A stretch of 32,102 nucleotides of DNA from a virus. The stretch is taken from IMG/VR virus record IMGVR_UViG_3300027736_000149, positions 1-32,102 of that record; one strand, written 5' to 3'. Shown one piece after another: positions 9,850 to 27,569 of this stretch (within the stretch, counting starts at the first letter, position 1; each line of letters begins with the position of its first letter). The translations under genes were made by a program, and so were the position numbers. The notes beneath the pieces were generated by a model that searched no databases, was not told the origin of the DNA, and was given only the letters and a program-made list of their open reading frames with translations.

Positions 9850-10217
9850 CCAACCGCCAACGTCACAAGGGCAACCCCGGCCGGTTTACGCAGTTGCTCA
9901 CCATCACCGCATCAAGCGGCGTGCGCGGCGATGGCGGCGACTTCCAACCCGCCTGGAGCGGCACCAGCACGCAAGTCCGCGGCATGTGGCGGAAGACCTC
10001 GTATACAGAAGCGGCAATGGAGGGCGGGCGATTCTCGCGCGCCGCTGGCGTGTGGGAGATTCCGTGGATTCCATCGCTTGCCGAGGACTTCCGCGTGAGT
10101 TACGCCGACCGCAATGGGACGACGCAATACCAGCGCATTGTGGGCATTGATGAGCCCGAGCGGCGGGGCCGCGAGCTGCATCTGTACGTGGTCGAGGACG
10201 AAGGGGCGAAGTTATGA
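9846..10217 (+). CDS. Head-tail adaptor (head closure) protein
   Basis: A 123-residue protein of the Phage_H_T_join type (SPP1 gp16 and HK97 gp7-like in role). It begins with a Gly-rich basic stretch, then FTQLLTITASSGVRGDGGD, a W-containing G-x-Q-V-R-G-M-W strand, and YQRIVGIDEPERRGRELHLYV, the usual C-terminal beta hairpin of these adaptors. It would close the head channel and bind the tail. Overlaps of four bases at both ends tie it to its neighbours. Family assignment rests on size, strand pattern and exact synteny between the gp6-like connector and a DUF3168-like gene. Confidence 0.82.
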   Translation: MTNRQRHKGNPGRFTQLLTITASSGVRGDGGDFQPAWSGTSTQVRGMWRKTSYTEAAMEGGRFSRAAGVWEIPWIPSLAEDFRVSYADRNGTTQYQRIVGIDEPERRGRELHLYVVEDEGAKL

Positions 10218-14653: not shown

Positions 14654-16281
14654 TGGGTATATCAGTTCTAATTCAATCTACCCTTCGGAATAACCTGACG
14701 GGGCGGGACGGAGTGTCGATTACCAAGGCACTCCGCACTATCCCCACGGCCACGATCCGCACCGTGGACAAAACCGGGGCATTCCTGCCCGCCGTCGGCA
14801 ACCTGATCGAAGTTCAAGACGACCTCGGCGGGCCGACGGTGACGCTGTTTGGTGGCTCGATCAACGAAGTCGAGCGCATCCGGCGCCGCACCAGCATCGC
14901 CACACTCGAAACCAACTGCTCATGCGTCGGCAAAGCTGACCGGCTAGAACGGCGCCTGGCTGGCTATTACGAGTGGACAGGGAAAACGGGCGGCTACATT
15001 CTTGGGCAGATGGTGGCGAATAGTCTTTCCGGCGATATCTCTATTGCATCCCCATCCGGCATCACCGCCGGCCCGGTGATTGATTCGCTGGTGTGGGATT
15101 ACCCGACCTGCAAGGACGCCGCCGATTCCGTTTGCAACCTCACCGGGTACGAGTATTACGTGACGCCGGAAGGCACATTTTCGTATTTCTTGCCCGCATC
15201 CAATGCCTGCCCGGTGAGCATCACTACCGGGGCGAACGTCAATAAGATCACCACCCGCGAGACGCGCGAGGACTTCTGCAACCGCGTCACGATCAAAGTA
15301 GCCAACGCGCTACGCGATCCAGACACCGAAAACTTCACGGGCGACGGGGTGTCCACCAGCTTCAACGTCACCAACCCCATCGCCCAGGCGCCCGACATCT
15401 TTATCGGCTCGCCAGCCGTAGCTCAAACCGTCGGCATCATCGACGTAGACACCGGCAAGGATTGGTACTGGCAAGAAGGCTCAACCGAGATACGGCAGGA
15501 CAGCGGAGCCACTGTCATCAGTGCCGGTGTCTCGATCATGGTCACCTACGTCGGAACCGAATCGATTCTGGTGGCGGCAGCCAACACGACCAGTATCAGC
15601 GACCGGGCGACAGCCGAGAGTAACAGCGGGATCTACCACAAGCTACTCACCCTTGACACCAAGCTCACGCGCGCCAACGCGCAAGCCGTAGCCGACGCCT
15701 ACGTTGACCGCTATTCCGAGCTTTCAGTGGTCATGGTCTTTGAGACAGATACCATCCTGGAGCCCGACTGTATCAACATCGAGCCAGGCCAAACGCTTAC
15801 CGTTTCCCTCACCGGATACCAGTGCGCCGGAACCTATCTAGTCCGCTCCGTTACGCTTCAATCCCGCCTGAATGATCAGCACGAGGCCCGCTGGGCTGTG
15901 CGCGTCGAGGCCGTGAGCGGGCCGGTGCTGCGCAATTACGTGGACGTGTTCCGCGATCTATCGGGCGGCGGCGGGAATATCAGCGGCTCCAGTTCCATCG
16001 CATCGGCCGGGAGTGGTGCCGGGGTGTACGTCTACGAGCCAGCAAAGCTGACGGCCAACACCACGATTACCGCGCCGGTTCCGGCGACGAGTGGAGCGAC
16101 GATGGTGGTGTTTATCAAGCAGGGTGCTGGGCCGTATACGATTAGCTTTGACGCCACGCAGTTTGCGCAGATCGTCAACACAAACATTCCAGCCGTCGAA
16201 AACATGGAGATAGCCTTCCCTTTCGTCGGCCGCTCTGACGGCCTTTGGTGGCCGATGTCTTTTGCCCGTGAGATGTCCTAA
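14653..16281 (+). CDS. Tail hub/baseplate protein
   Basis: A 542-residue protein right after the tape measure, in the place of the tail-tip hub. The first third alternates strands and has TVTLFGGSINEVERIR and ATLETNCSCVGKADRLE segments like hub domains that surround the tape measure. The middle has a beta-rich insertion with FTGDGVSTSFNVTNPIAQ, and the DRYSELSVVMVFET to NIEPGQTLTVSLTGY part recalls the second hub domain. A Gly/Ser linker near residues 440-455 leads to a C-terminal beta domain of about 85 residues, perhaps for fibre attachment. There are eight cysteines and no signal peptide. TAATG links it to both neighbours. Exact family was not determined. Confidence 0.65.
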   Translation: MGISVLIQSTLRNNLTGRDGVSITKALRTIPTATIRTVDKTGAFLPAVGNLIEVQDDLGGPTVTLFGGSINEVERIRRRTSIATLETNCSCVGKADRLERRLAGYYEWTGKTGGYILGQMVANSLSGDISIASPSGITAGPVIDSLVWDYPTCKDAADSVCNLTGYEYYVTPEGTFSYFLPASNACPVSITTGANVNKITTRETREDFCNRVTIKVANALRDPDTENFTGDGVSTSFNVTNPIAQAPDIFIGSPAVAQTVGIIDVDTGKDWYWQEGSTEIRQDSGATVISAGVSIMVTYVGTESILVAAANTTSISDRATAESNSGIYHKLLTLDTKLTRANAQAVADAYVDRYSELSVVMVFETDTILEPDCINIEPGQTLTVSLTGYQCAGTYLVRSVTLQSRLNDQHEARWAVRVEAVSGPVLRNYVDVFRDLSGGGGNISGSSSIASAGSGAGVYVYEPAKLTANTTITAPVPATSGATMVVFIKQGAGPYTISFDATQFAQIVNTNIPAVENMEIAFPFVGRSDGLWWPMSFAREMS

Positions 16282-19200
16282 TGAATAAACTCCCCATACT
16301 TTGCGTCCTGGCAGCCGTGGCGGCGTTTCCGCAGGCTCAAACGCCTCTCACTATCACCCAATCCGCTGGCAGCGCTACGGGCGAATTGCGGATGCAGGAG
16401 CGGCGGACGAACGGCACAAACTACGTTGGAATAAAGGCCCCGCAGTCAGTGGCGACTAACACCGTCTGGACTCTTCCGAGTGCTGACGGCACCAGCGGCC
16501 AATGCCTCACCACCGACGGCGCCGGCCAATGGCAGTGGGAAGCGTGCAGCGATACCCGCCTAGTCAGCGATTACGACTGGACGCAGGTAATGGGCGCGCG
16601 CAGTGGCTCCGGGGCCATCACGCTGACCTTTACGGGCACAAGCTGCCCAGCGGCGGGCGCGGATGCGGCCTACGTCTTCCGCGTCTACGAAACCAGCACG
16701 CCAACGACTTACGAACTCGCCACCAGCAACGCCACGGGCACCTGCACGCGCGGCGGCGCTGGCACCATTGTGGCCACCGGACCCACTGGCACCTACACCA
16801 ACGCCACCGCTACCAGCGCCTCCAGCGGCTGGCAGGAGGCCGTGTTCAGCGTCGCCGATAGCCTCCCCGTTTACCTCCGCGCTGCCGTGGGCGGATACTA
16901 CGTCTACAGCGACATCCTCACCGAAGACCGCTACCTGACCGTCGAATGCGATGGGCCGGGGGCGCTGCTGGTACCCATGGCGAACAACGTCAGCGTCTTC
17001 AACGCCGCCTCCCCGGGCGGGATCAGGGTGAGTCATTGCGGCTTCAACAACGTGTACGCCAAGACCGGAACAAAGGCCGTCTACACCTACAACCCCGACG
17101 GCGACAGCTTCGGGACTCTCCTCTACGACAACAATATCAGCGGCTTCGAGAAGTGCGTCCACCTTGAATCCGTCTACGGCCTGACCGGGTACGCCTACAA
17201 CCGCCACATCGACTGCACGGACACGGCGCTGCACCTGGAAAATCCGAACACCGGGGACGCCGGGATTGGGCTGGTCGGGCCAGGGAATATCTTCAGTGAT
17301 TCGGTTCCTGGCGGCGCAAACTACGGGATTTTATGGAACGGGCCGGGAAACTTGAAGGTTATTGGCAACTCCTTCAACGGCTACTTGAAGCAAATCTATG
17401 GGCGCCTGAAAATGGGCGTTGCCGACGTCAGCGGTACCGCTGTTACTTGGCAATCCGGCCACAAGTTTCGCCCGTCCTACTTCACCCCAACGCCCGGAAA
17501 CTTCGTGTGCGGTTCGACCGTCGCCTCTACAATCGCCGGATACACCGACGACGAAAACCTCACTCTCACCACTGGCCCCGCGTCGCCAGTCAACGACTGC
17601 GACTACTACATCAACAACACCGGGCAGCTCCTCATCCAGAACAACACGTTCGACTCCTGGACCTGGACCACAAACGACGTTGAGCTAGCCGGGGACATCC
17701 TCTATCTCAACTGGCAAATTCAGAACAATTTCAGCTCAAACCCTAACCAGACCACCTTCGACGCTTCCTACAAAGTCAGCGGGGCTAACTGGTACTTCGG
17801 GAGCATCAAGGGCAATAACTGCCAAACCTCCTACGTCATCGGAACGTGCGTTGAACTCGACGGCGGTAGCTATATCGACGTGAGCGATAACCAGGTGGTG
17901 AACCTCGTCACGGGTACCGCCATCGGCGCCGGGGCATCCTACGTTATGACCGACGGCAACCGGTGCGCGAACTCCAATACGACGGACTGCGTGACCTCCG
18001 CGGCCTCAACGTCAATCCTCCGCGAAGTCACGCCGGTGACCTACACCCAACTCGTCGCCCTCAGCGCGGCCAACTCCAGCAGCCTCTACTGTTCCAATTG
18101 CAAGCAGACCTCCGCATCCTCCGCCACATGCGCCACGGGTGGCAGCGGGGCGCGGGCTACGCGCATAAATGGCGCCTGGAAGTGCGACGACGGCAGCGTG
18201 GCGAATGCGTTTGTGCAGGGCGGTAACTCGTTCGGGGCGACGGCGGAACTGGGGACCGCGGACGCCTACGGGGTCCAGTTCAAAACGAATAACACGGGCA
18301 TATGGGCATTCCAGACCACCGGCCATTTATGGGCCTCGTCCAATAATGTCTACGACATCGGCGCGGGTATTTCCTCGAACTCGCCACGCAATATCTATGC
18401 TGCGACGTCGATGGTGGCGCCGGCGTTCTCTGCCATCGATTCTAGCGGCTCCTATGTCGCCGCCAGAAAGCTCGAAGTCCACATGGACGGCACAGGCACG
18501 GCGTTCTTTAATTGGTCCTTCGGCACGTCAAACACCATGGACCTACTGGACACCGCCAGCGGGGTAATCCAGCGATGGGACCGCAACACGTCCGACGTGT
18601 CTTTTGACGCGAACGTATGGCCGCGCGGTACTACCGAGACGCGGAATCTTGGGCTGACGACGGCGCGATGGCTTGCGCTAAACACAAAGAACCTGAACCT
18701 CTCCGGCAACGTCACCAGCAATCTCACGCCATCTGGCACGCGCGACCTTGGCGCCACGGGCAGCGAGTGGAACGGGCTCTATGCTGGTACCGCAGTGGTC
18801 ACATCAATTATTGAGCCGAAAGTAAATGGCGGCGCGCAAAACGGGGATTCCACCAAGCGCTGGTCTACGACTTACACGCAAGACCTGAACGCCTCGGGCA
18901 CGATCACATTTCCAACCGGAACTACCGGATACGTCTGGACCAATGCTGGCTCCGGAGTAGGTGGATGGGCGGCGGCGGGGGCATGCTCCACCTGCATCAT
19001 CAACGGCGGCAACACCACCGGGGCCACGCTGACCATTGGCACGAATGACGCGCAAACGCTTTCGCTTGAAACGAACAATATTTCCTACCTGCAAATCAGT
19101 TCCACCGGCGTAACGACCATCGCGGGCAACGTAATTCCATCCGGCACGCGGTCACTTGGGATCACTGGGACCGAGTGGGATTCGATCTATGCCGGCTCGG

Positions 19201-20129
19201 GCGTCATCACCTCCATCATTGAGCCAAAAGTCAACGGCGGGGCACAGAACGGCGACACGCTGAAGCGCTGGAGCAACGTCTATACCGTCGACCTGAACGT
19301 ATCCGGCACCTGTACGGGATGCTCATCGCTGCCTGTCGTGGACACCACTGGAATCGCCAAGGGATCGGCCGACGCCACGAAGATAGTGCGGCTTGAGGTG
19401 GACGGCCTGACCACCGGAACCACCCGCGTGATGACCGTGCCAGATGTCAACATGACCCTAGCCGGGCGCGACGTTGCAAACACCTTCACCGCTGCTCAGA
19501 CCTACAACAGCACCGTGTCATACGCCTCCACGATCTCCAGCGGCCTATCGCCAACCACCACGCTCGCCTATGACCAGGGCTCCGCGTCGCTCCAATGGGC
19601 AACAATCTACACCGGCAACATCACCGCATCGCTCACCGGCACCTTCGGGACGCTGGTGGTCAACAGCCGCACGCTGACCCCGCAGGCGGCTAACTACACG
19701 CTGGCCGGCACGAACCTATCTCAGACGTTTTCAAACACGCAAACATTTAGCGGCACGCTGGCCGTGAGCGGCACAGTGGGCGACGATTTCATTCCCAACT
19801 CCGACGGCACTTATGTAAACGGCACAACGTCATTCAGGTGGGGCTCCATTGCCACTTACAACGCCGATTTCAACGGCGTGCTGACGTTCAGCGGCGGGAC
19901 TACCTTTACAGGCTCATTCCTGCCGACTACGAATAATCTCTACTCCATCGGCAACACGTCATTCCGGCTATCAACCGTCGTTACAACCAACTTCAACGTC
20001 TCTGGCACGATCACGGCGCCCAGCGGCTCATCTGGCTTATCGGCGACAAAGACGGTCCGGGACTCCGCTGGCACCGGCACCTGCACGCTGATCTTCAGCG
20101 GCGGAATCCTGACCGGCGGCACCTGCTAA
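16281..20129 (+). CDS. Large tailspike/fibre protein with apparent signal peptide
   Basis: A 1282-residue receptor-binding candidate. The N-terminus (Lys3, then PILCVLAAVAAF and PQAQ) reads as a Sec-type signal peptide, strange for a phage tail protein. An early TLPSADGTSGQCLTTDG block is common in phage fibres. Residues about 212-374 and 449-567 look like a right-handed beta-helix, the fold of tailspikes that cut polysaccharide (repeated N-N-x-I/F strand turns), but no catalytic residues can be assigned. From about 775 to the end run five or six fibre repeats. The mature part holds 24 cysteines, an even and unusually high number. TAATG couples it to the hub gene. No C-terminal self-cleaving chaperone was recognised. 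Confidence 0.7.
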   Translation: MNKLPILCVLAAVAAFPQAQTPLTITQSAGSATGELRMQERRTNGTNYVGIKAPQSVATNTVWTLPSADGTSGQCLTTDGAGQWQWEACSDTRLVSDYDWTQVMGARSGSGAITLTFTGTSCPAAGADAAYVFRVYETSTPTTYELATSNATGTCTRGGAGTIVATGPTGTYTNATATSASSGWQEAVFSVADSLPVYLRAAVGGYYVYSDILTEDRYLTVECDGPGALLVPMANNVSVFNAASPGGIRVSHCGFNNVYAKTGTKAVYTYNPDGDSFGTLLYDNNISGFEKCVHLESVYGLTGYAYNRHIDCTDTALHLENPNTGDAGIGLVGPGNIFSDSVPGGANYGILWNGPGNLKVIGNSFNGYLKQIYGRLKMGVADVSGTAVTWQSGHKFRPSYFTPTPGNFVCGSTVASTIAGYTDDENLTLTTGPASPVNDCDYYINNTGQLLIQNNTFDSWTWTTNDVELAGDILYLNWQIQNNFSSNPNQTTFDASYKVSGANWYFGSIKGNNCQTSYVIGTCVELDGGSYIDVSDNQVVNLVTGTAIGAGASYVMTDGNRCANSNTTDCVTSAASTSILREVTPVTYTQLVALSAANSSSLYCSNCKQTSASSATCATGGSGARATRINGAWKCDDGSVANAFVQGGNSFGATAELGTADAYGVQFKTNNTGIWAFQTTGHLWASSNNVYDIGAGISSNSPRNIYAATSMVAPAFSAIDSSGSYVAARKLEVHMDGTGTAFFNWSFGTSNTMDLLDTASGVIQRWDRNTSDVSFDANVWPRGTTETRNLGLTTARWLALNTKNLNLSGNVTSNLTPSGTRDLGATGSEWNGLYAGTAVVTSIIEPKVNGGAQNGDSTKRWSTTYTQDLNASGTITFPTGTTGYVWTNAGSGVGGWAAAGACSTCIINGGNTTGATLTIGTNDAQTLSLETNNISYLQISSTGVTTIAGNVIPSGTRSLGITGTEWDSIYAGSGVITSIIEPKVNGGAQNGDTLKRWSNVYTVDLNVSGTCTGCSSLPVVDTTGIAKGSADATKIVRLEVDGLTTGTTRVMTVPDVNMTLAGRDVANTFTAAQTYNSTVSYASTISSGLSPTTTLAYDQGSASLQWATIYTGNITASLTGTFGTLVVNSRTLTPQAANYTLAGTNLSQTFSNTQTFSGTLAVSGTVGDDFIPNSDGTYVNGTTSFRWGSIATYNADFNGVLTFSGGTTFTGSFLPTTNNLYSIGNTSFRLSTVVTTNFNVSGTITAPSGSSGLSATKTVRDSAGTGTCTLIFSGGILTGGTC
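18617..20040 (+). repeat. Diverged fibre repeats in the tailspike gene
   Basis: The encoded repeats follow a loose pattern: an aromatic or hydrophobic residue and P, an S/T-G-T-R or similar turn, L-G, a W or F about seven residues on, then a Y-x-x-x-L/F-N-x-S-G strand. Two adjacent units share the segment TSIIEPKVNGGAQNGD exactly, although the DNA differs at several synonymous positions. Starts lie near residues 779, 815, 951, 1088, 1170 and 1212. They probably build the trimeric shaft. Confidence 0.6.
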
Positions 20130-20134
20130 ACCTC

Positions 20135-20191
20135 CCCGGCGTCTGAACTGTGCCGTATAGCGGCTGCGTGGCGAAAGCCTAGGGCGCCGGG
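20135..20191 (+). ncRNA. Candidate three-way-junction RNA
   Basis: The gap between the tailspike gene and the next small gene folds compactly. CCCGGCG (20135-20141) pairs with CGCCGGG (20185-20191), extendable by three pairs including two G-U. Inside are GCCG/CGGC at 20152-20155 and 20161-20164 with a TATAG loop, and GGC/GCC at 20170-20172 and 20177-20179 closed by a GAAA tetraloop. There is no T tract, so it is not a simple terminator. It may be a cis-regulatory element for the downstream gene or an mRNA processing signal. It does not fit any riboswitch or ribozyme core I know. Confidence 0.35.
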
Positions 20192-20206
20192 AAATAACTC
20201 GACTTT

Positions 20207-20470
20207 ATGCGCACCATCGCACTACTCGCAAGCATGGGCCTGCTTGCGGCGGCTGAACAGCCGAAACCAACGCCCTCCCTGAACACCGCCGAGCGCACCG
20301 CGCTGGGCTACGTAGTCGCCGAGTCCAAAAAGCTCGACGACCAGCAAAAGCAACTCCGCGCGCAATACGAGGCCATCGTGGCCGATGCGTGCAAGCGCGC
20401 CGTAGGCGTCCCCGCGTGCAAGATCGGCGAAGACGGCACGCTGACGAAAATCGAAGAGGTGAAAAAGTGA
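20207..20470 (+). CDS. Small exported protein, coiled-coil
   Basis: An 87-residue protein not recognised. RTIALLASMGLLAAAEQ looks like a short signal peptide; after it come a Pro-rich KPTPS segment, a helix (ERTALGYVVAESKKLDDQQKQL) and two cysteines (DACKRAVGVPAC) close enough for a disulfide. It ends Lys-rich. The gene lies where lysis genes often sit; a periplasmic helper of lysis (spanin-like) is one possibility, but no lipobox or clear spanin feature is present. The N-terminal half resembles the 60-residue protein at 23615, which also has LAAAE, then K-P and P, near its start. Its TGA overlaps the next gene's GTG. Confidence 0.6.
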   Translation: MRTIALLASMGLLAAAEQPKPTPSLNTAERTALGYVVAESKKLDDQQKQLRAQYEAIVADACKRAVGVPACKIGEDGTLTKIEEVKK

Positions 20471-20826
20471 TCTCGCCCAAGCTCGTACCTGCTATCCTCC
20501 TCGCCATCGCCGCGCTGCGGGGCGAGTCCATCTGCGGCACCGACGAGCGCAACCAAACGCCCAACATCGACCTCATCCAAGTCGCTTGCGTGGACTACGA
20601 CCGCCTCCGCGAGCTGGCACCGCAGTACCCATGGCCGGTGGGCAAGGTGACGCAGGTGCTTGTCCACGTCCGCGAGGGCGACGCCGTGCGCGTGACCGTC
20701 GATGGCGTGGCGAAATTCGCCGATCTGGTACGTGACGCCTGGGGCCGGCTGATTGCGCTGATACAGCTCGATGGCGTGGAGCATACCAGCGTGAGCGTCA
20801 AGGTTTACCGGGCGGTGGAGGAGTGA
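20467..20826 (+). CDS. Small exported protein of unknown function
   Basis: A 119-residue protein with a probable signal peptide (PKLVPAILLAIAALRGES) and two cysteines in the mature part (SICGTDE and VACVDY). The C-terminal two thirds, with VTQVLVHVREGDAVRVTVDGV and VEHTSVSVKVYRAVEE, look beta-rich, possibly an Ig- or beta-sandwich-like domain. GTG 20467 is chosen because it gives a GTGA overlap with the previous stop; the longer frame upstream is just that gene in another frame. No family was recognised. The next gene again starts with GTGA overlap, so the three are one unit. Confidence 0.65.
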   Translation: MISPKLVPAILLAIAALRGESICGTDERNQTPNIDLIQVACVDYDRLRELAPQYPWPVGKVTQVLVHVREGDAVRVTVDGVAKFADLVRDAWGRLIALIQLDGVEHTSVSVKVYRAVEE

Positions 20827-20984
20827 AGCTCCGCACCGCTGCCGTCGTCGCTACCACCGACGACGGCGACAAGATCGGCGGGCCGTATTTTCTTCCATTA
20901 GACCCGCCCGCCAAGCAGGAAATTAACCAACTCGCCCGTGAATACGGGCCGCTCGACATCAAAAATCAGGAGCAAAAACCATGA
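20823..20984 (+). CDS. Small hypothetical protein (53 aa)
   Basis: A short gene starting at GTG 20823 and ending at TGA 20982-20984, with a GTGA overlap upstream and an ATGA overlap downstream. This tight packing on both sides is the main evidence that it is real. The product has a short beta-like start (KLRTAAVVATTDDGD), a YFLPLDPPAKQEINQL segment and a charged end; it lacks a signal peptide or membrane segment. No family was recognised. Confidence 0.6.
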   Translation: MKLRTAAVVATTDDGDKIGGPYFLPLDPPAKQEINQLAREYGPLDIKNQEQKP

Positions 20985-21355
20985 CCTACAAGGCCCCCAA
21001 TTCCGCCTACAATATCACCATCGAGGCCGCTGAGAAGTTCGTCGCCAAACTCCGCGCCCTCGGCTTCCCGGTGGGCAAGCTACACGCCAACGGGCAGGCG
21101 GCGGCGGAAACCGCGGACTATGTGCCCGTGGATGAACTGGCCGGGCTGGAACCGGGCGAGAAGTACAATCTCGTCGCGTTCAGCGCGGGCGACTGGCACA
21201 ACATCGCGTTGCTCGTTCAGACGTTCGGCAGCGGCTCACTGGAAGAATTCCGGCGCGTCTGCGTGGAGTTCGGCGCTGACTACCGGGCGCAACTCCTGAA
21301 CATCCCCGGCGCCGCGAAGGCCATCGAGAAGCTGATTCAAAAGGCCGGCGCATGA
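20981..21355 (+). CDS. Hypothetical protein (124 aa)
   Basis: A 124-residue protein, mainly helical, with no known motif. It has AAEKFVAKLRALGFPVGKLHANG, a loop, NLVAFSAGDWHNIALLVQTF, and a C-terminal helix with LLNIPGAAKAIEKLIQKAG. CAGGAG lies at good spacing before ATG 20981. It overlaps the following small membrane gene by four bases, so it may act with that protein in lysis or the virion. There is no endolysin signature: no clear amidase, lysozyme or transglycosylase catalytic set. Confidence 0.7.
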   Translation: MTYKAPNSAYNITIEAAEKFVAKLRALGFPVGKLHANGQAAAETADYVPVDELAGLEPGEKYNLVAFSAGDWHNIALLVQTFGSGSLEEFRRVCVEFGADYRAQLLNIPGAAKAIEKLIQKAGA

Positions 21356-21594
21356 ACTGGCGCAAGATCCTCAAAGCCGCCCTCATCGCCGCCGGTTCCG
21401 GTGCCGTTGGTGCCGTCGCGCAGTCCGCACAGGAAGGCGCAAAGCCGGAAGCGCTGAAGACCGCCGCTATCGCCGGGGCCGTCCTTGGCCTAATTGGCCA
21501 CCTGACGCAATCGCCACTCACACCCGAGGCACCACCGCCCGACGGCCAGTATCCTCCGCCGCCACGTCAAGCACCGCCACCGCCCGAGAAGTGA
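21352..21594 (+). CDS. Small membrane protein, possible holin
   Basis: An 80-residue protein with two short Ala/Gly-rich hydrophobic helices, about residues 9-27 (AALIAAGSGAVGAVAQ) and 37-54 (LKTAAIAGAVLGLIGHL). The C-terminal end is Pro-rich (PPPPRQAPPPPEK). Size, two membrane segments and the neighbourhood of another small membrane protein suit a holin, the protein that opens the inner membrane at lysis, but the helices are weakly hydrophobic and no holin family is recognised. A structural membrane-binding role is also possible. It overlaps the preceding gene by four bases. Confidence 0.5.
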   Translation: MNWRKILKAALIAAGSGAVGAVAQSAQEGAKPEALKTAAIAGAVLGLIGHLTQSPLTPEAPPPDGQYPPPPRQAPPPPEK

Positions 21595-21601
21595 AAATTC
21601 C

Positions 21602-21919
21602 ATGCCGGAGCAAATCTTGGCCGAACAGGAACCACTCGCAGCACTTCACCGCATTGGCGAGGTACTCGTCAATTTGCGCGACGACGTGGCGGAGTCCCGC
21701 ACGTCTCAAGCTGTCACCGTCGAAAAGCTGACGACAATATCAGCTCATCTCACCACACTCAACGGGCGCACCGCGAAAAGCGAGGATCGAATTTCGATGC
21801 TTGAAACCGCCCTCGCTGAAGTGCGCGGGGCGTGGAAGTTTGTCGCGCTAATCTCCTCGATTCCAGCCAGCATCATCGGTGCCGGGGCGATGTGGTGGGC
21901 TAATCACGGGGGCAAATAG
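21602..21919 (+). CDS. Coiled-coil tail-anchored protein, XhlA/holin-like
   Basis: A 105-residue protein. Residues 5-75 form a long amphipathic helix with heptads (IGEVLVNLRDDVAES; EKLTTISAHLTTLNG; SEDRISMLETALAEV), and residues 79-100 are one membrane segment (KFVALISSIPASIIGAGAMWW), followed by a short basic end. This architecture is shared with XhlA-type proteins in phage lysis cassettes and some antiholins. With the gene at 21352 it could form the membrane-opening pair. The TAG overlaps the GTG start of the metallophosphoesterase gene. No exact family match can be claimed. Confidence 0.55.
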   Translation: MPEQILAEQEPLAALHRIGEVLVNLRDDVAESRTSQAVTVEKLTTISAHLTTLNGRTAKSEDRISMLETALAEVRGAWKFVALISSIPASIIGAGAMWWANHGGK

Positions 21920-22668
21920 TGGCCAACATCAACCGCGTCTGGAAACGCTGGATGGCGACTGGGTGCTTACACAGCACCCACGCCTGCGCTGAATACCAGC
22001 GCAACGTCCGGGCCTTCAAGGCGGCATTCCACCCGGATCGGCACATCGAACTAGGCGACCTCCTTGAAACCACCGCGCTTCGATCCGGCGCCCGCGGCAC
22101 GAAGGACGAAGCCGAACCGTTGGAGCCAGATGTCAACAAGGCGCTGGCGTGGCTCACCGAAATGGAGCCGTCCGACTGGCTGCTGGGCAACCACGACGAC
22201 CGCATCATCCAGCTCCTCTCGCACCCGTCCGCTATCGTCGCCGAACTCGCCCGCCGGCTGTGGTCAGACATGCAGGCGGCGGCAGAGAAGGCCGGGGCGA
22301 AAATTCACCCCTACGACATCGAGCGCGGCTGGATTCGCGTGGGGAATATGTACATGGGGCACGGCTATATGTACAACATCAACGCACTGCGCGATCACGT
22401 CGAAATGATGGGCGGACATGTGGTCATGGCGCATCTGCACGTGGCGCACACGTTCCGGGCCCGCAATCATGGCGGGCACTGGGGCGTATGCGTCGGCACC
22501 GGCGGCGACCCGCGCACGATGGGGTACGCGCGGCGGCGGCGGCAGACCTTGGCGTGGAATCACGGCATTGCCTACGGCGAGTACACGGACAGCGACAGCA
22601 CGATGCACCTCCTCCAATGGAACTGCGCACACGGCGCGAAGGAGTCACCCCGATGGCTAATCTCCTAG
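21919..22668 (+). CDS. Metallophosphoesterase-like protein
   Basis: A 249-residue protein of the calcineurin-like phosphoesterase superfamily. Motifs in order: GCLHSTH at residues 15-21 (motif I, normally G-D-x-H), ELGDLLE with D47, LLGNHDDR with N91-H92-D93, MGHG with H148, and MAHLHVAH with H172 and H174. The motif I aspartate appears replaced by Cys16. Such phage enzymes may cut phosphodiesters in nucleic acids or nucleotides, or be altered to other tasks; substrate is unknown. GTG 21919 overlaps the previous TAG. The loss of the first metal ligand could mean reduced or altered activity. Confidence 0.7.
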   Translation: MANINRVWKRWMATGCLHSTHACAEYQRNVRAFKAAFHPDRHIELGDLLETTALRSGARGTKDEAEPLEPDVNKALAWLTEMEPSDWLLGNHDDRIIQLLSHPSAIVAELARRLWSDMQAAAEKAGAKIHPYDIERGWIRVGNMYMGHGYMYNINALRDHVEMMGGHVVMAHLHVAHTFRARNHGGHWGVCVGTGGDPRTMGYARRRRQTLAWNHGIAYGEYTDSDSTMHLLQWNCAHGAKESPRWLIS

Positions 22669-22886
22669 CAGACCTCGCCGCGGCGCTGGCGGCGGGCGGA
22701 ATTGAGACTCCAGGCGAAGGCTGGAAGACATCCGAGGCGCTGGCCGAGGAGTGCGGAGTGTGTCGGGATCACGCGCTCAAAATCCTCCGGCGAGGCATCA
22801 AAGCGGGCAAGGTGGAGTTACGGAAGTTCCGAATCATGAGCGGTGGGCGGCCGGCTCCCGTACCGCATTACCGAGTGATTGCATGA
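22653..22886 (+). CDS. Small helix-turn-helix DNA-binding-like protein
   Basis: A 77-residue protein. EGWKTSEALAEECGVCRDHALKILRRGIKAGKVELRKFR is the pattern of a winged helix: one helix, a turn at GVC, a recognition helix, then a G-K-V-E wing followed by a basic strand and a YRV ending. AAGGAG precedes ATG 22653, which lies inside the end of the metallophosphoesterase gene. It is the last intact plus-strand gene before the minus-strand operon, and could regulate late genes or that operon, though this is inference. Two cysteines (ECGVC) sit in the turn. Confidence 0.6.
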   Translation: MANLLADLAAALAAGGIETPGEGWKTSEALAEECGVCRDHALKILRRGIKAGKVELRKFRIMSGGRPAPVPHYRVIA

Positions 22887-23027
22887 CCCGCGAACGCTCA
22901 GGCACTGCTGGTCCATGAACTCCTCCACGTCCGCAGCGGCTGCACGGACCAGGCGCACGAGCCATGGATCAGGGACGTTGCGGCGGCGTTGGTGGGGTTG
23001 AAGAGACGCTCTTCGCCCGCCGCGTAG
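22883..23027 (+). pseudogene. HExxH metallopeptidase-like remnant or frameshifted small gene
   Basis: ATG 22883 overlaps the previous TGA in the ATGA manner common here but stops after 11 codons. The +1 frame from about 22887 stays open to TAG 23025-23027 and encodes QALLVHELLHVRSGC and HEPWIRDVAAALVGL. HELLH fits the HExxH zinc-binding motif of metallopeptidases. No standard start codon lies before the motif in that frame, so a one-base indel, a programmed +1 shift, or an unusual CTG start must be assumed. It could also be a coincidental open frame. The 3' end overlaps the minus-strand gene at 22969. Confidence 0.35.
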
Positions 23028-23154
23028 CAAGTGACTTCGCCATTGCCTCCGCGCGGCGTTCTGGCGACATCGAGCCGAATCCCTTGCGGGGGTTTTTTAC
23101 AGCCCCGCCAAGCCTCCCGATTTCAACGGCGGCGGGGTTTTTCGGGGTGGTCAT
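22969..23154 (-). CDS. Small basic protein, third gene of minus-strand operon
   Basis: A 61-residue basic protein read leftwards. AAVEIGRLGGAVKNPRKG followed by GSMSPERRAEAMAKSLATRR resembles small bacterial and phage proteins with a G-R-x-G-G start and an S-P-E-R-R helix, often proposed to bind nucleic acid. The C-terminal end is Ser/Thr/Pro-rich. Its start codon overlaps the stop of the middle gene (ATGA at 23151-23154), which supports it as real. It ends antisense to the HExxH remnant. It partly overlaps a plus-strand terminator-like hairpin, so that DNA would be doing two jobs. Confidence 0.55.
   Translation of the reverse strand: MTTPKNPAAVEIGRLGGAVKNPRKGFGSMSPERRAEAMAKSLATRRAKSVSSTPPTPPQRP
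23103..23142 (+). terminator. Plus-strand terminator-like hairpin at end of the first late block
   Basis: CCCCGCC (23103-23109) pairs with GGCGGGG (23131-23137), with a further inner GCC/GGC stem, and is followed by TTTTT at 23138-23142. A weaker CCC/GGG hairpin with six T lies just before it, at 23081-23098. Together they would end plus-strand transcription after the small helix-turn-helix gene. The same DNA encodes part of the minus-strand gene at 22969, so chance through its AAA-AAC-CCC codons cannot be ruled out. Confidence 0.5.
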
Positions 23155-23360
23155 GCGATCAACCCCCGGTACACGGCGGAAAACGAGTGGTTCGGCGTAA
23201 CCGGCAAGCGTCGCCAGCGGGGATCGCCATTTTCGGCCCAGACTTCGCGGATAAACTGATAGGCGGCTTCGACGCTGGGGTACTCGCCGGGCTGGAAGGC
23301 ATCGCGCACGCTGGCGGCTGCTTCTGTTGCGGCGGCGGCGGATATGTTTGGGTTGTTCAT
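23151..23360 (-). CDS. Hypothetical protein, second gene of minus-strand operon
   Basis: A 69-residue protein read leftwards. It begins with an Ala-rich low-complexity helix (ISAAAATEAAASVRDAF) followed by YPSVEAAYQFIREVWAENGDPRWRRLP, a compact helical unit, and ends FSAVYRGLIA. A clear GAGGAG ribosome site precedes the start at 23360, and its stop overlaps the next gene's start. No family was recognised. Both the strong ribosome site and the coupled layout argue that it is a real gene rather than a shadow; no plus-strand gene competes here. Confidence 0.6.
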   Translation of the reverse strand: MNNPNISAAAATEAAASVRDAFQPGEYPSVEAAYQFIREVWAENGDPRWRRLPVTPNHSFSAVYRGLIA

Positions 23361-23383
23361 CTTTTCATCTCCTCTGCGGGCTT

Positions 23384-23402
23384 AACGCCGCCCGCTGGCG
23401 TT
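23384..23402 (-). promoter_or_regulatory. Hairpin between first and second minus-strand genes
   Basis: AACGCC and GGCGTT arms with a seven-base loop lie in the 51-bp gap between the two genes. There is no T tract following on either strand. It may protect the mRNA or reduce downstream expression. Confidence 0.3.
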
Positions 23403-23411
23403 TGGGTTGGG

Positions 23412-23573
23412 TTAGCGGGTGGCCTTGGCGATCAGGAAGGCCGTTACGGTCGCTTCCAGCGCCTCGCCAGTAAGGCCCTGCGCGGCGAAGTGGTTTGTCG
23501 TGGTTTGCCACATCTCGAAAAGTCTCCGCATCGCCTGGCCGGTGGTCATGTCGGTTTGTTGTGCGCTGTTCAT
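23412..23573 (-). CDS. Small hypothetical protein, first gene of minus-strand operon
   Basis: A 53-residue protein read leftwards from ATG 23571-23573 to TAA 23412-23414. It is helical: MTTGQAMRRLFEMWQTTTNHF, then LTGEALEATVTAFLIAKATR. No family was recognised. The promoter on the minus strand is so near that transcription should begin at or next to the ATG, giving a leaderless mRNA, and indeed no Shine-Dalgarno sequence is visible. The gene is the first of three in the minus-strand block and could be made in lysogens or early infection, independent of late genes. Confidence 0.6.
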   Translation of the reverse strand: MNSAQQTDMTTGQAMRRLFEMWQTTTNHFAAQGLTGEALEATVTAFLIAKATR

Positions 23574-23579
23574 ACTTCT

Positions 23580-23607
23580 ATATTAGCATAACCGCTTATA
23601 CTGTCAA
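23580..23607 (-). promoter_or_regulatory. Sigma-70-like promoter of the minus-strand operon
   Basis: On the minus strand a perfect -35 TTGACA (23607-23602), a 16-base spacer and a -10-like TAATAT (23585-23580) lie six bases before the ATG at 23573. The spacer holds ATAA-GCGG-TTAT, a small dyad that could be an operator. The gap also faces the plus-strand gene at 23615, so it is divergent; a weaker TATACT at 23597-23602 could serve the plus strand. Confidence 0.65.
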
Positions 23608-23614
23608 CAACAAA

Positions 23615-23797
23615 ATGACCCGCCGCGCATTATTTTTTCTCGCCGCCGCTGAACCGGACAAGCCGCCACCCGTCAGCGAGCAAGCGTGGAACGACTTCGC
23701 GGGCAGGGCGAACTACTACGCGGAGCAGTTGAAGCTCGGCATCATTGACCTGAAGGCATGGGCGGCGGTGCTGAAGGCGTGGAAGTCGCTGCGGTGA
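23615..23797 (+). CDS. Small protein with short hydrophobic N-terminus
   Basis: A 60-residue protein starting at ATG 23615; the frame continues upstream but only through the promoter and minus-strand gene. RRALFFLAAAE is a short hydrophobic start that may be a weak signal peptide or membrane anchor; a Pro-rich KPPPVSE segment and two helices (WNDFAGRANYYAEQLKLG; LKAWAAVLKAWKSLR) follow. Its layout resembles the 87-residue protein at 20207, so the two may be distant relatives, one before each fibre-type block or beside it. No family was recognised, and there is no cysteine. Confidence 0.5.
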   Translation: MTRRALFFLAAAEPDKPPPVSEQAWNDFAGRANYYAEQLKLGIIDLKAWAAVLKAWKSLR

Positions 23798-23810
23798 ACG
23801 AAAGGACTTT

Positions 23811-26414
23811 ATGACCAAGATTTTATACACGCTTTTCCTTGGTGCGCTTGCCGCCTACGGGCAACAGGTAACGCTGTCTGATACCCTCACAAACGCCGTC
23901 GGCGGCGGCTCGTTCACCGGGCGCGTGACGGTAACCCTCAACGCTCCCGGCAGCGCCTCGCCGCTTTACTACAGCACCACCAGCTTGACCGGCTGGCAAG
24001 CTGTGTACTGTATCGGCGTCACGGGCGCCGATTGCACGACGACGACCAGCGCTGGCACCTTTTCGGCGACGCTCTACGCCAACAGCACCATCACGCCTGC
24101 CGGCACCTCGTACAGCGCTCGGTTTCAGCCGGCGAAGGGCGCGGCGTGGTCTGAAACGTGGAGCGTCGAGCCTTCGGATACCAAGCTATATCAGGTGCGG
24201 ACCTCCACCGTACCATCCCCAGCCGTGATGTTCCAGCCGTCGCAATTGACGGCGGGCGGTGCGTCCAACGGAAGCTGTCTGGTGTACGACGGAACCACCT
24301 GGGAGCCCGGCTCATGTTCTTCGGGCAGCGGCACCGTTACGAGCGTGGCGGCAACCGTTCCGTCTATCCTCAGCGTCACCGGTTCGCCGATCACCACCAG
24401 CGGCACGCTGGCGCTCTCGCTGGCTACGCAGACGGCCAATACCGTCTTTGCTGGGCCAACGACGGGCAGCGCTGCCACGCCGACCTTCCGCTCACTGGTA
24501 TCGGCCGACATTCCGGCCAACGCGGCAAACACAAGCGGCAATGCTGGCACTGCAACGGCCTTAGCGGCCAACGGTACTAACTGCTCTGCTGGCTCGTATC
24601 CGCTCGGCGTGGACGCATCCGGCAACGCCGAAGGCTGCACAGTGGCCAGCGGCGGAAGCGGCACCGTCACCAGCGTGAGTGTCGCCACGGCTAACGGCGT
24701 GTCCGGCTCGGTGGCCACGGCGACCACCACGCCAGCGATATCTCTTACCTTGGGTGCCATCACGCCCACGAGCGTCGCCGCGGGCGGTACGGTGACCGGA
24801 TCAAACCTCAGCGGTACCAATACGGGCGACCAGACCACGATCACGGGCAACGCCGGGACCGCCACCGCCCTCGCCGCGAACCCTGCAAACTGCTCGGCAG
24901 GTACTCTGCCGCGTGGCGTCGATGCTTCGGGCGCTGGCGAGGGCTGCGCGGCTGTCGCGCTGGCGTCTGAAGTCACAGGGACGCTGGCAAATAGCAGCAC
25001 GACCGCCACCGCGCTCAACACTGCATCGGCCATCGTTGCGCGGGATGGATCGGGCAATTTTGCGGCCGGCACGATCACGGCCGCGCTGACGGGCAACGCT
25101 TCGACCTCGACGGCTTTCGCCGCCAACGGCGCCAACTGTAGCGCTGGCAGCTTTCCGCTGGGCGTCGATGCTTCGGGAGCGTCAGAGAGTTGCACGGCGC
25201 TGCCGACGACCATCAGCGGCACGGCAAACCAGATTACCGCCAGCGCTTCCACGGGGGCTGTCACGCTGTCGCTGCCCGCAACCATCACAGGGCTGACGTC
25301 AGTAAGCTCTACGGGCTTCACGGGCGCGCTGACGGGCAACGCTTCGACCTCGACGGCTTTCGCCGCCAACGGCGCCAACTGTAGCGCTGGGTCTTATCCA
25401 AAAGGCGTTGATGCAAGCGGCGCCGCGGAATCCTGCTCCGCGGTCTCATTGACCGCGGATGTGTCTGGAATTCTGCCCGTCGCAAACGGCGGCACCGATA
25501 ACGCATTTTTCACGGTTGCCGGGCCAGCCACGAGCGCAAAAACCTACACCTTCCCGAACGCGTCGGCGACCGTCCTAACATCCAATGCCGCCGTCACCAT
25601 CGCGCAGGGAGGCACGGGTACTGCCTCCACGCTTACTGGCCTGGTGCGCGGCTCGGCGTCGGCCATGACCGCAGCGGAATTGAGCGGCGACGCGACGACC
25701 AGCGGCAGCAACGCAATAACTGTGATTCGGATCAACGGCACCTCGTTGTCCGGGTTGGCCACTGGTCTACTGAAGAACACGACGGGTACGGGTGTTCCAT
25801 CCATTGCGGTGGCTGGGACGGATTACAGCACGCCCTCCAGCACGGACACGTTAACCAATAAGACCTATAACGTGGCTTCGACTGGCAACGCCTTCACGGA
25901 CACGTCCAAAATTACTTTGATCACGGCAGGCTGCCAAAACGCTACCGCTGCCCTGTTTTGGGATACGCCAACAACCAATCCAGCGGTCGCCGCTTGCGTA
26001 ACCGGCACCAACACGCAGAAGGGCGTCGCCGATTTCGCCGATGGCGCCAACAGCCTCTCGATGCAAACCGGCTTCCTACTGCCTTCGGATTGGGTGGCCG
26101 GGATCGATGCGAAGTTGCTCTGGTTGTCTTCGGTAACGACGGGGGATGTAGTTTGGCAGGTGGCCACCATCTGCACGGCCGACGCCGAGACGGACGACCC
26201 GGCGTTCAACACTGCGTCCACTGTAACGGACACGACCAAAGGGACCACTAATCAACTCAACACCGCGACAATCACCGGGATCACGGCCACCGGCTGCGCG
26301 GCGGGAGAATTCATGCACGTTAAAGTATTCCGCGACCCGACGCACGCATCAGACACAATGGCAGGGACGGCGCGGCTAATGGCAGTAGAACTGACACTCA
26401 CGAGGACCCAATAA
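23811..26414 (+). CDS. Second large fibre protein with apparent signal peptide
   Basis: An 867-residue protein. KILYTLFLGALAAYGQQ is a convincing Sec-type signal peptide. A beta-rich N-terminal domain (to about residue 150) is followed by fibre sequence: SGTVTSVAATVPSILSVTG, four C-x17-C repeats (cysteines at 258/276, 361/379, 443/461, 524/542), and the TFPNASATVLTSNAAVTIAQ segment typical of phage tail fibres. The last 120 residues look like a jelly-roll, perhaps the receptor- or sugar-binding tip. Sixteen cysteines, again even. GAAAGGA precedes ATG 23811. The gene may encode an alternative or side fibre; export would be unexpected and is treated as a finding. Confidence 0.7.
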   Translation: MTKILYTLFLGALAAYGQQVTLSDTLTNAVGGGSFTGRVTVTLNAPGSASPLYYSTTSLTGWQAVYCIGVTGADCTTTTSAGTFSATLYANSTITPAGTSYSARFQPAKGAAWSETWSVEPSDTKLYQVRTSTVPSPAVMFQPSQLTAGGASNGSCLVYDGTTWEPGSCSSGSGTVTSVAATVPSILSVTGSPITTSGTLALSLATQTANTVFAGPTTGSAATPTFRSLVSADIPANAANTSGNAGTATALAANGTNCSAGSYPLGVDASGNAEGCTVASGGSGTVTSVSVATANGVSGSVATATTTPAISLTLGAITPTSVAAGGTVTGSNLSGTNTGDQTTITGNAGTATALAANPANCSAGTLPRGVDASGAGEGCAAVALASEVTGTLANSSTTATALNTASAIVARDGSGNFAAGTITAALTGNASTSTAFAANGANCSAGSFPLGVDASGASESCTALPTTISGTANQITASASTGAVTLSLPATITGLTSVSSTGFTGALTGNASTSTAFAANGANCSAGSYPKGVDASGAAESCSAVSLTADVSGILPVANGGTDNAFFTVAGPATSAKTYTFPNASATVLTSNAAVTIAQGGTGTASTLTGLVRGSASAMTAAELSGDATTSGSNAITVIRINGTSLSGLATGLLKNTTGTGVPSIAVAGTDYSTPSSTDTLTNKTYNVASTGNAFTDTSKITLITAGCQNATAALFWDTPTTNPAVAACVTGTNTQKGVADFADGANSLSMQTGFLLPSDWVAGIDAKLLWLSSVTTGDVVWQVATICTADAETDDPAFNTASTVTDTTKGTTNQLNTATITGITATGCAAGEFMHVKVFRDPTHASDTMAGTARLMAVELTLTRTQ
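25082..25147 (+). repeat. 66-bp direct repeat, copy 1
   Basis: Identical to 25325-25390, offset 243 bases (81 codons, in frame). It encodes the end of one fibre unit, including TAFAANGANC and the first cysteine of a C-x17-C pair. Exact identity over 66 bases suggests recent duplication or gene conversion. Confidence 0.9.
25325..25390 (+). repeat. 66-bp direct repeat, copy 2
   Basis: Second exact copy of the sequence at 25082-25147 within the same fibre gene. Recombination between the copies would delete or add 81 residues without changing frame, so the fibre may vary in length. Confidence 0.9.
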
Positions 26415-26415
26415 T

Positions 26416-26859
26416 ATGCCCAACATCACAATTCCAGACATTGTGGTAAATGCAGCCGGACAGGCCGCAATTACCAAATGGCTGGCGGCGGAATCGACGT
26501 CGATCCAATCCGCTCTCGCCGCTGATATCGCGGCTGGCGATTTAACACTGACGGTTGCCGTGTCCAATTGGCAACCGGCAGTCGGGCGTTTGGTCGGCGT
26601 TGAAAACGAGGTGTGCGCGGTCACGGCCAAAAACGGCTCCGTGCTTACGGTCACCCGTGGCCTGGGCGGCACCGCTGCCGTCACTCATACCGCTGGCGTC
26701 CTGGTGCGCGAGTTGAAATATCAAAGCGTGGCCGATGGGCTCCGCGATCAGATCATTCAATTCGTGCGTCAGCGAATCGCCAGCGATTCGACCATCAACG
26801 CGGCCGTTCTAGCCGAGCAGTCAAAGCGGGACTCGGCCATCGTTGCGGCGGTGTCGTGA
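26416..26859 (+). CDS. Phage structural protein, probably fibre-associated
   Basis: A 147-residue protein. After a helical start (NAAGQAAITKWLAAESTSIQSAL) comes a beta segment with DLTLTVAVSNWQPAVGRLVGVENEVCAV and LTVTRGLGGTAAVTHTAGVLV. The R-G-x-x-G-T-A-A-x-x-H-x-A-G pattern is met in phage tail and baseplate proteins near fibres. The C-terminal end is helical (LRDQIIQFVRQRIAS). There is no signal peptide, in contrast to both neighbours, and one cysteine. It follows the fibre gene at once and its stop overlaps the next start, so it is likely a tail-tip or fibre-linker part. Confidence 0.6.
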   Translation: MPNITIPDIVVNAAGQAAITKWLAAESTSIQSALAADIAAGDLTLTVAVSNWQPAVGRLVGVENEVCAVTAKNGSVLTVTRGLGGTAAVTHTAGVLVRELKYQSVADGLRDQIIQFVRQRIASDSTINAAVLAEQSKRDSAIVAAVS

Positions 26860-27569
26860 TGTGGCTGCGCGTATTCGGCTTCCTGGCGTTGCTGTTCGCG
26901 GCGGCGGTGCCAGCGTTTTCGGCCATCACTTACGTTAACGGGGTCGCTACCGCCGGGTCCACAATGGGCGCGCTCAATGTCACCACGGGCAATATGGTGG
27001 TCGCCTGTGCGCTATACCAAACTGGGGGCGCCTCAGTTACGGCAGCGGATACTGCTGGCAACACCTACGTAGCGTTGCCGCAGCAGGTCCGTGGCACGGA
27101 TTTTGCCTATGGCGTTTGGTGCTTCTATGTGCTGAATGCGACGGGCAACGCCTCCAACATAGTCACTTTCTCCGGCCCGTTCATTTACGAGGGAGCAGTG
27201 GCTCAATACTCCGGCGTGGCCACATCGGCGGCGCTTGACGTCACTAACAAGGGAGCCGGCGGGAATAGCATAACGGCCACGACTCAATCGTTTTCAACGA
27301 CCACCGCAAACCAACTCATCCTCATTTCTGGCCCTGCCGAGAACTGGGCGTTAGTGTCAACAGATATAGCGGGCACTGCTGGAAATGTTCGGGTCACCGC
27401 TCCCAACGGAACCATCACTATTGCTGATCGCATCGTGGCTAGTATTCAAAGCAGTGTCACCGCGTCCATGACAAATACCAGTAGCCAAAAGTGGGCCATC
27501 GTCGCGTACAGCTTCAAAGAGGCGGCGGCTGCCACAACCCAGCAACGCCGCGTAATCGTCATCCAGTAG
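26859..27569 (+). CDS. Exported beta-rich protein
   Basis: A 236-residue protein with an obvious signal peptide: WLRVFGFLALLFAAAVPAFSA, predicted cut after AFSA. The mature part is beta-rich with GNMVVACALYQTGGASVTAADTAG, then FAYGVWCFYVLNATG and a VAQYSGVATSAALDV segment, a pattern known from uncharacterised secreted or phage-associated beta-sandwich proteins. The two cysteines lie about 39 residues apart and could pair. The gene ends the second fibre block; the strong terminator 24 bases after it closes the operon. It may be a decoration or receptor-binding protein, or act on the host cell surface. ATG 26859 overlaps the previous TGA. Confidence 0.65.
   Translation: MWLRVFGFLALLFAAAVPAFSAITYVNGVATAGSTMGALNVTTGNMVVACALYQTGGASVTAADTAGNTYVALPQQVRGTDFAYGVWCFYVLNATGNASNIVTFSGPFIYEGAVAQYSGVATSAALDVTNKGAGGNSITATTQSFSTTTANQLILISGPAENWALVSTDIAGTAGNVRVTAPNGTITIADRIVASIQSSVTASMTNTSSQKWAIVAYSFKEAAAATTQQRRVIVIQ

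Follow-up and report, generated by a model that had tools for sequence, protein, structure and literature searches.

The assembly of tailed phages is taught as a wholly cytoplasmic process, and tailspikes of the P22 type are made and folded in the cytoplasm, with no signal peptide. A few phage-related proteins that do leave the cytoplasm have been described. The antiholin RI of phage T4 is phage-encoded, has a cleavable Sec signal and is released into the periplasm (PMC8385771), although it is a small lysis regulator rather than a fibre and is not encoded beside a tail hub. XepA, encoded in the PBSX region of Bacillus subtilis, is exported across the membrane in the course of phage development (PMC6834076), but it is a pentamer from a lysis cassette and is absent from particles (PMC6834076). 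One report mentions one or two signal peptides in two rumen Bacteroides phages (PMC5723332). In the open-access papers that we searched, we found no report of fibres or tailspikes bearing Sec signal peptides.

The window considered here, that is, the whole stretch of DNA analysed, is an entire virus record of 32,102 bases from an environmental tailed phage. It contains HK97-type head genes (terminase, portal, protease and capsid), then a tape measure, a hub and a fibre region; for the terminase, the only matches are to distant phages, with about 35% identity. The features discussed below are as follows.

14653..16281, + strand: tail hub gene, 542 aa, no signal, 8 cysteines (from gene order after the tape measure and from hub relatives)
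16281..20129, + strand: putative exported tailspike/fibre-like protein, 1,282 aa, ATG start, 24 mature cysteines (from the ORF, a beta-helix model and relatives)
16281..16337, + strand: predicted signal peptide of the 1,282-aa protein, MNKLPILCVLAAVAAFPQA followed by Q, cleavage site approximate (from the signal test)
16500..16550, + strand: adaptor module with the cysteine pair C75-C89, GQCLTTDGAGQWQWEAC (from the count of pairs and signals in homologues)
16872..18194, + strand: predicted right-handed beta-helix region of the 1,282-aa protein, limits approximate (from an AlphaFold2 model and Foldseek)
20207..20470, + strand: putative small exported protein, 87 aa, ATG start, signal MRTIALLASMGLLAAA, 2 mature cysteines (from relatives)
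20467..20826, + strand: putative small exported protein, 119 aa, GTG start, signal MISPKLVPAILLAIAALRG, C23 and C41, predicted Ig-like beta-sandwich (from relatives and a model)
23811..26414, + strand: putative exported fibre-like protein, 867 aa, ATG start, 16 mature cysteines in eight near-neighbour pairs (from relatives)
23811..23861, + strand: predicted signal peptide of the 867-aa protein, MTKILYTLFLGALAAYG followed by QQV (from the signal test)
24582..25436, + strand: four NCSAG...EGC repeat modules of the 867-aa protein, one cysteine pair each (258/276, 361/379, 443/461, 524/542)
26416..26859, + strand: fibre-domain protein, 147 aa, no signal, one cysteine, between two exported genes (from PHROG tail and tail fibre matches)
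26859..27569, + strand: putative exported protein, 236 aa, ATG start, signal MWLRVFGFLALLFAAAVPAFS, C50 and C88, weak minor-tail similarity (from a PHROG match and the relative L089)

A first-pass annotation had pointed out five open reading frames in the fibre region with signal-type N-termini, and we could confirm these at the starts it gave. Our signal test was home-made and rule-based, requiring a net positive n-region, an uncharged hydrophobic window of 9 residues and small residues at -3/-1, and it accepts all five. Each N-terminus has at least one positive residue, then a hydrophobic core free of charges, then small residues around the predicted cleavage site, as in preproteins of the Sec/signal peptidase I type, whose core spans 8-15 residues. 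Among the 36 listed genes of the window, the test accepts just one more, at 21352, which encodes an 80-aa protein with two hydrophobic segments; it rejects all of the first 20, of which the hub is the last. In the loci of 13 relatives, about 1 in 126 genes upstream of the hub scores, versus one to four per locus downstream. We considered and rejected two other classes of exported protein: by eye there is no lipobox ([LVI][ASTVI][GAS]C with its cysteine) in the five N-termini, as a bacterial lipoprotein processed by signal peptidase II would have, and the RR of a Tat substrate is absent from all five n-regions. The cysteine counts of the first pass also stand: the mature parts have 24, 2, 2, 16 and 2, all even, compared with one in the capsid, one in the tape measure and eight in the hub. 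The 1,282-aa protein has 25 cysteines in total, of which one (position 8) lies inside the signal.

Several other genes of the fibre region deserve mention. The 80-aa protein at 21352 is followed by a 105-aa protein that, with its coiled coil and a membrane segment at the C-terminus, resembles XhlA-type holins, and the pair (21352-21919) is likely a lysis module within the fibre region. Next to it, at 21919-22668, is a metallophosphoesterase-like gene (phrog_221) with 94-97% identity between phages whose hubs are 30-46% identical, suggesting recent exchange. A 60-aa protein at 23615-23797 (MTRRALFFLAAAEPDKPP...) is kept in more than 10 relatives; its very short hydrophobic start fails the signal test and is possibly a minimal signal. 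The 147-aa fibre-domain protein had no homologue among the first relatives collected. The 119-aa gene overlaps the 87-aa gene (20467 versus 20470). The two products do not look like a spanin pair, which consists of a partner anchored in the inner membrane and an outer-membrane lipoprotein with a lipobox: there is no lipobox and the hydrophobic core is short and of the cleavable type. A model of the 119-aa protein is a beta-sandwich (pLDDT 82) with a poorly defined N-terminus; its fold has no significant match, the best (VIA, Z 7) being to Ig-like domains. The 236-aa protein has no Pfam match and a weak match to the minor tail family phrog_553 (E 1.7e-4), and the 867-aa protein matches neither Pfam nor PHROGs; we do not take missing PHROG or Pfam matches as novelty of fold.

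A survey of relatives for the same trait had been proposed, and in homologues taken from IMG/VR (the counts in this paragraph are of complete, distinct members) the signal is inherited in the families of all five proteins. The signal is present in 18 of 18 members of the 1,282-aa family (MNKPLLLCALAALAAFGQSQ, MRQLLLILATLAAFGQA and MKALIYILAAAALFGQA are examples), with even mature cysteine counts in 15 of 18 (3 to 24 cysteines). All 16 members of the 867-aa family have both a signal (for example MKKLLLFLGALAAYAQ, MKKLLLFLGALALQAQ and MARIALCLASCVGLFAQ) and an even count (4 to 16), all 12 members of the 87-aa family have a signal and two mature cysteines, and both members of the 236-aa family have a signal. 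In the 119-aa family the signal is found in 15 of 16; the exception, L133, is on the same contig as L017 and is cut at an internal start; when the reading begins further upstream, in L017, there is a signal and an extra segment. The relative of the 867-aa gene at L017 has a TAA (10052-10054) at the junction of signal and mature protein, with MTLTKIFSALFLGALALQA before the stop and QVTISDT after it; this is a broken gene or a contig error, and the other relatives are intact. L262, the single locus from our scan with the 867-aa C-terminal domain, has a fibre that by eye appears exported and has ten mature cysteines.

The signals are conserved by type and not by sequence. Members of the 119-aa family are 61-83% identical to the window's protein over their whole length and the mature part is strongly conserved, yet it is preceded by at least four N-termini that do not align with one another (MISPKLIPAILLAIAALRG, MTPHPRTKLGLQIDWGIVLFFLLLAGACIARG, MNTLKGIALAAVIALAVALRA and MTRPRWAIRADWGILIICLIAACAVARA). 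Similarly, the relative of the 236-aa protein at L089 has an unrelated signal, MIRALLLIVAALPSFGA, before a mature part that is 88% identical. In the 1,282-aa family, 226 of 359 codon differences within the signal change the amino acid, versus 314 of 1,089 just after it, and hydrophobicity is kept throughout. Cleavable signals evolve in this way, with fast amino-acid change and the type retained.

It had been anticipated that the true starts might lie downstream of the hydrophobic segments. We weighed this explanation, in which the segments are not translated, together with chance as the origin of the pattern. In its favour are the start codon of the 119-aa protein, which is GTG, and the weakness of the ribosome sites of two genes. 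The starts and the hydrophobic segments are kept in all relatives, however, and codon-position counts within the signal segments give a third-position excess of differences, from which we conclude that these segments are translated. With so few upstream genes scoring in the signal test (about 1/126), we regard this explanation as extremely improbable.

Even cysteine counts had been offered as evidence for disulfides, and here the earlier argument survives in weakened form. In a set of 947 non-redundant ORFs, proteins with at least two cysteines have an even number in 78 of 104 cases with a signal (78:26) and in 290 of 503 without (290:213; Fisher p ~0.001), so parity is indeed more often even behind a signal, but even counts exceed half without a signal too, and for this reason we do not use parity alone as main evidence. 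The difference is real but modest. Pairing at the level of modules is much stronger. Both cysteines of the NCSAG...EGC module are present in 41 of 41 modules at all loci. The adaptor module, LP..DGT.GQ(x)L.TDG.G....(x), is common to exported proteins and to ordinary fibres, such as that of a Pelagibacter phage, and allows a direct comparison: its homologues (distinct sequences from viral and bacterial contigs with an intact 5' end, which are related and are therefore not independent trials) include 25 with both pair and signal, none with the pair and no signal, 63 with neither, and 15 with a signal and no pair, a group made up largely of proteins from bacterial chromosomes. In phage fibres without a signal, the first adaptor site is mostly V, F or A, and the whole protein mostly has zero to three cysteines. 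If disulfides could form in the exported versions alone, one would expect to find the pair solely behind a signal, as is the case here.

These observations also bear on the possibility that the hydrophobic N-terminus is a retained anchor that fastens the fibre, while the particle assembles or enters a cell, to a membrane or to the hub. Some of the cores are short, and the -3/-1 site of the 1,282-aa protein (PQA/Q) is not ideal. We nevertheless think an anchor unlikely, as the same type of N-terminus is found on the small proteins and on unrelated fibres of unrelated phages, the swaps for unrelated hydrophobic sequences would not be allowed by a specific contact with the hub, and the cysteine pairs track the hydrophobic N-terminus. 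The first-pass reading of export and disulfide formation gains support from the relatives in so far as the signal is conserved by type, is swapped on a conserved mature part and is the only context for the pairs; judged from these sequences, Sec export and cysteine pairing of the five proteins appear well supported.

What the 1,282-aa protein is can be suggested from its fold and position. An AlphaFold2 model of residues 19-652 of the 1,282-aa protein (built from five sequences) is a right-handed beta-helix, with a mean pLDDT of 63 and better values in the middle. Foldseek matches among solved structures (3th0, 1tyv and 7vyv among them) are polysaccharide-acting enzymes, the P22 tailspike and the Klebsiella depolymerase Depo32, and the matches among viral models are annotated tailspikes. 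Two features expected of a tailspike are found, a right-handed parallel beta-helix (in a moderate-confidence model) and a gene adjoining the hub at the end of the tail module. The relatives of this protein keep their N- and C-terminal parts while the centre is divergent, as in receptor-binding proteins.

The stop codon of the hub (TAA) overlaps the ATG of the 1,282-aa gene, an arrangement from which the protein is predicted to be translationally coupled to the hub. At about 28 distinct hub loci, down to hubs about 30% identical, the next gene starts at the hub stop or overlaps it by a few bases and carries a signal; wherever a relative has signal fibres, this coupling of hub stop and start codon is present. 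L111 and L112, with hubs 43-46% identical, have a different next gene with no signal. These two loci offer a natural contrast in which the non-exported next genes are still fairly cysteine-rich (8, 6, 2 and 8 at L111 11712-16213; 9 and 10 at L112 11712-13956). The window's signal and adaptor recur almost unchanged on the fibre of L017, beside a hub that is 30% identical, so this end of the fibre appears to move between phages as a unit. The eight cysteines of the hub, which has no signal, had been raised as an objection to the disulfide argument; this objection fails, since among hub relatives 28-95% identical only C209 is invariant, unlike the conserved pairs of the exported proteins.

A more serious alternative is that the proteins are exported, never enter the virion and do their work in the periplasm or as secreted products, whether as adhesins of the infected cell, as free depolymerases, as receptor decoys or as blockers of superinfection. 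Signals and cysteine pairs require export alone, and there are known precedents in XepA of PBSX (PMC6834076) and T4 RI (PMC8385771), as well as in WceF, an exported bacterial enzyme of tailspike fold that acts on exopolysaccharide without a phage (PMC7949094). The hub could moreover supply its own receptor-binding tip, as a tip-like domain ends it and might be the receptor-binding part, although this terminal domain is conserved and not variable. Against a purely secreted role, all relatives that possess the first fibre gene have it coupled to the hub stop.

Unrelated phages contribute further evidence on this point. Several phage contigs that share only a repeat with the window also have signals on fibre-like genes. 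In L049, a tape measure and a hub are accompanied by an exported protein of 1,093 aa that contains a tail fibre domain, and L043 encodes an exported protein of 785 aa with a C-terminal match to the distal fibre subunit of the T4 type (a gp37-like tip). At L156-L158 a similar signal-bearing gene follows a host-specificity hub, and L034 has six signal-bearing fibre-like genes in a row. A scan from L034 led to podovirus-like loci (L264-L278) in which portal, ejection or internal virion proteins, often cysteine-free or cysteine-poor, are followed by runs of exported cysteine-rich genes, as in L270, where seven consecutive exported genes have 10, 16, 28, 16, 8, 16 and 22 mature cysteines. Such runs of four to seven signal genes with many cysteines, mostly in even numbers (L270 484-14392, L268 6858-16248, L034 5552-20216, L264 4513-13241) are on contigs of 45-105 kb from podovirus-like or unclassified phages. 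Where as many as seven large genes for exported fibre-like proteins stand in a row, they resemble a set of virion fibres and not accessory secreted enzymes. In addition, several relatives are without any cytoplasmic fibre: at L014, L091 and L139 every fibre-like gene after the hub carries a signal, so no cytoplasmic fibre is left there for the job. On the other side, the adaptor is found in bacterial chromosomal contigs of Ignavibacteria, Bdellovibrionales, Patescibacteria and Planctomycetota (L228-L251), and several of these proteins bear a signal, without the cysteine pair. On balance, we consider secretion without incorporation into the virion the main rival reading, possible though less likely than not.

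We looked for precedents in the cultured Bacteroidota phages B40-8, 11b, 6H and RAP44 and rejected them, as the signals there are mainly on small spanin-type lipoproteins, several beside lysis genes; apart from such lipoprotein-type N-termini there is one weak signal hit, 6H gp34. The search for a host gave no hub relative in a GTDB scan. For a Holophagaceae hit, 396 genomes of its phylum were covered, and they contained no phage-like fibre. An Acidobacteriota host, guessed from the AYGQ/AFGQ endings of the signals, is not claimed here.

We lean slightly toward the view that the two large proteins are exported, disulfide-bonded receptor-binding spikes or fibres that mature in the periplasm and join the tails at lysis. 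A role in receptor binding is favoured by where the genes lie, after the hub, by the beta-helix of tailspike type, by the fibre adaptor module and by a centre that varies while the ends are conserved. Starting from what can be read in the sequences (signals conserved by type, cysteine pairs tied to them, a predicted tailspike fold and coupling to the hub), we infer cleavage, disulfide formation, presence in the virion and attachment at lysis. The five preproteins would pass through the Sec translocon of the host and lose the N-terminal signal, and the mature proteins would fold in the oxidising periplasm, where cysteines would pair within each small beta module. The two large proteins would be receptor-binding tailspike or fibre proteins, and the three small ones exported partners, perhaps helpers in folding or attachment or decoration domains. 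Since, to our knowledge, all studied tailed phages assemble their tails in the cytoplasm, attachment of exported fibres would have to wait for lysis, and the finished spikes would most likely wait in the periplasm until then. For such late attachment there are examples in vitro, where P22 tailspikes, and likewise T4 fibres, are able to join particles. On the other side, exported spikes could bind the producing cell's own receptors, and the window may be incomplete, in which case another fibre could be encoded outside it.

Taken together, the signals and paired cysteines on spike- or fibre-like proteins, here and in many unrelated uncultivated phages, suggest folding outside the cytoplasm. More tentatively, and with somewhat less than even confidence, we propose a class of phages that build their receptor-binding spikes by way of Sec and oxidative folding in the periplasm and attach them only at lysis, a class that would have arisen or spread among siphovirus-like and podovirus-like phages for which metagenome contigs are the only source. 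Exported disulfide-bonded fibres, if real, would mean that the cell makes one portion of the particle in a separate compartment and adds it at lysis, and they would also explain many uncharacterised cysteine-rich proteins of uncultivated phages. Even if these proteins never enter the virion, up to seven large secreted proteins per genome would amount to an unnoticed phage secretome at the surface of the infected cell or in its surroundings.

Each of the closest known systems shares part of this combination. The tail fibre of the Pelagibacter phage Mosig (MT647606) has the same LP..DGT.GQ.L.TDG.G adaptor, but it has no signal, F/V in place of the cysteine pair and one cysteine in 569 aa. The cage protein Alg11 of AlgoCIS has a functional disulfide (C268-C1000) in a phage-tail-like particle (PMC13314943), although that particle is an extracellular contractile injection system and Alg11 is not an exported fibre. 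WceF of Pantoea stewartii is a tailspike-like trimeric beta-helix with an export signal (PMC7949094), indicating that a tailspike fold can be exported; it differs in being a bacterial gene product from an exopolysaccharide operon, in using Tat and not Sec, and in that no disulfides are mentioned (PMC7949094). The P22 tailspike and other beta-helix tailspikes and depolymerases share with the 1,282-aa protein a right-handed beta-helix in mid-protein, an N-terminal adaptor and a gene in the fibre region, and what sets the 1,282-aa protein apart from the P22 type is its Sec-type signal together with 24 mature cysteines.
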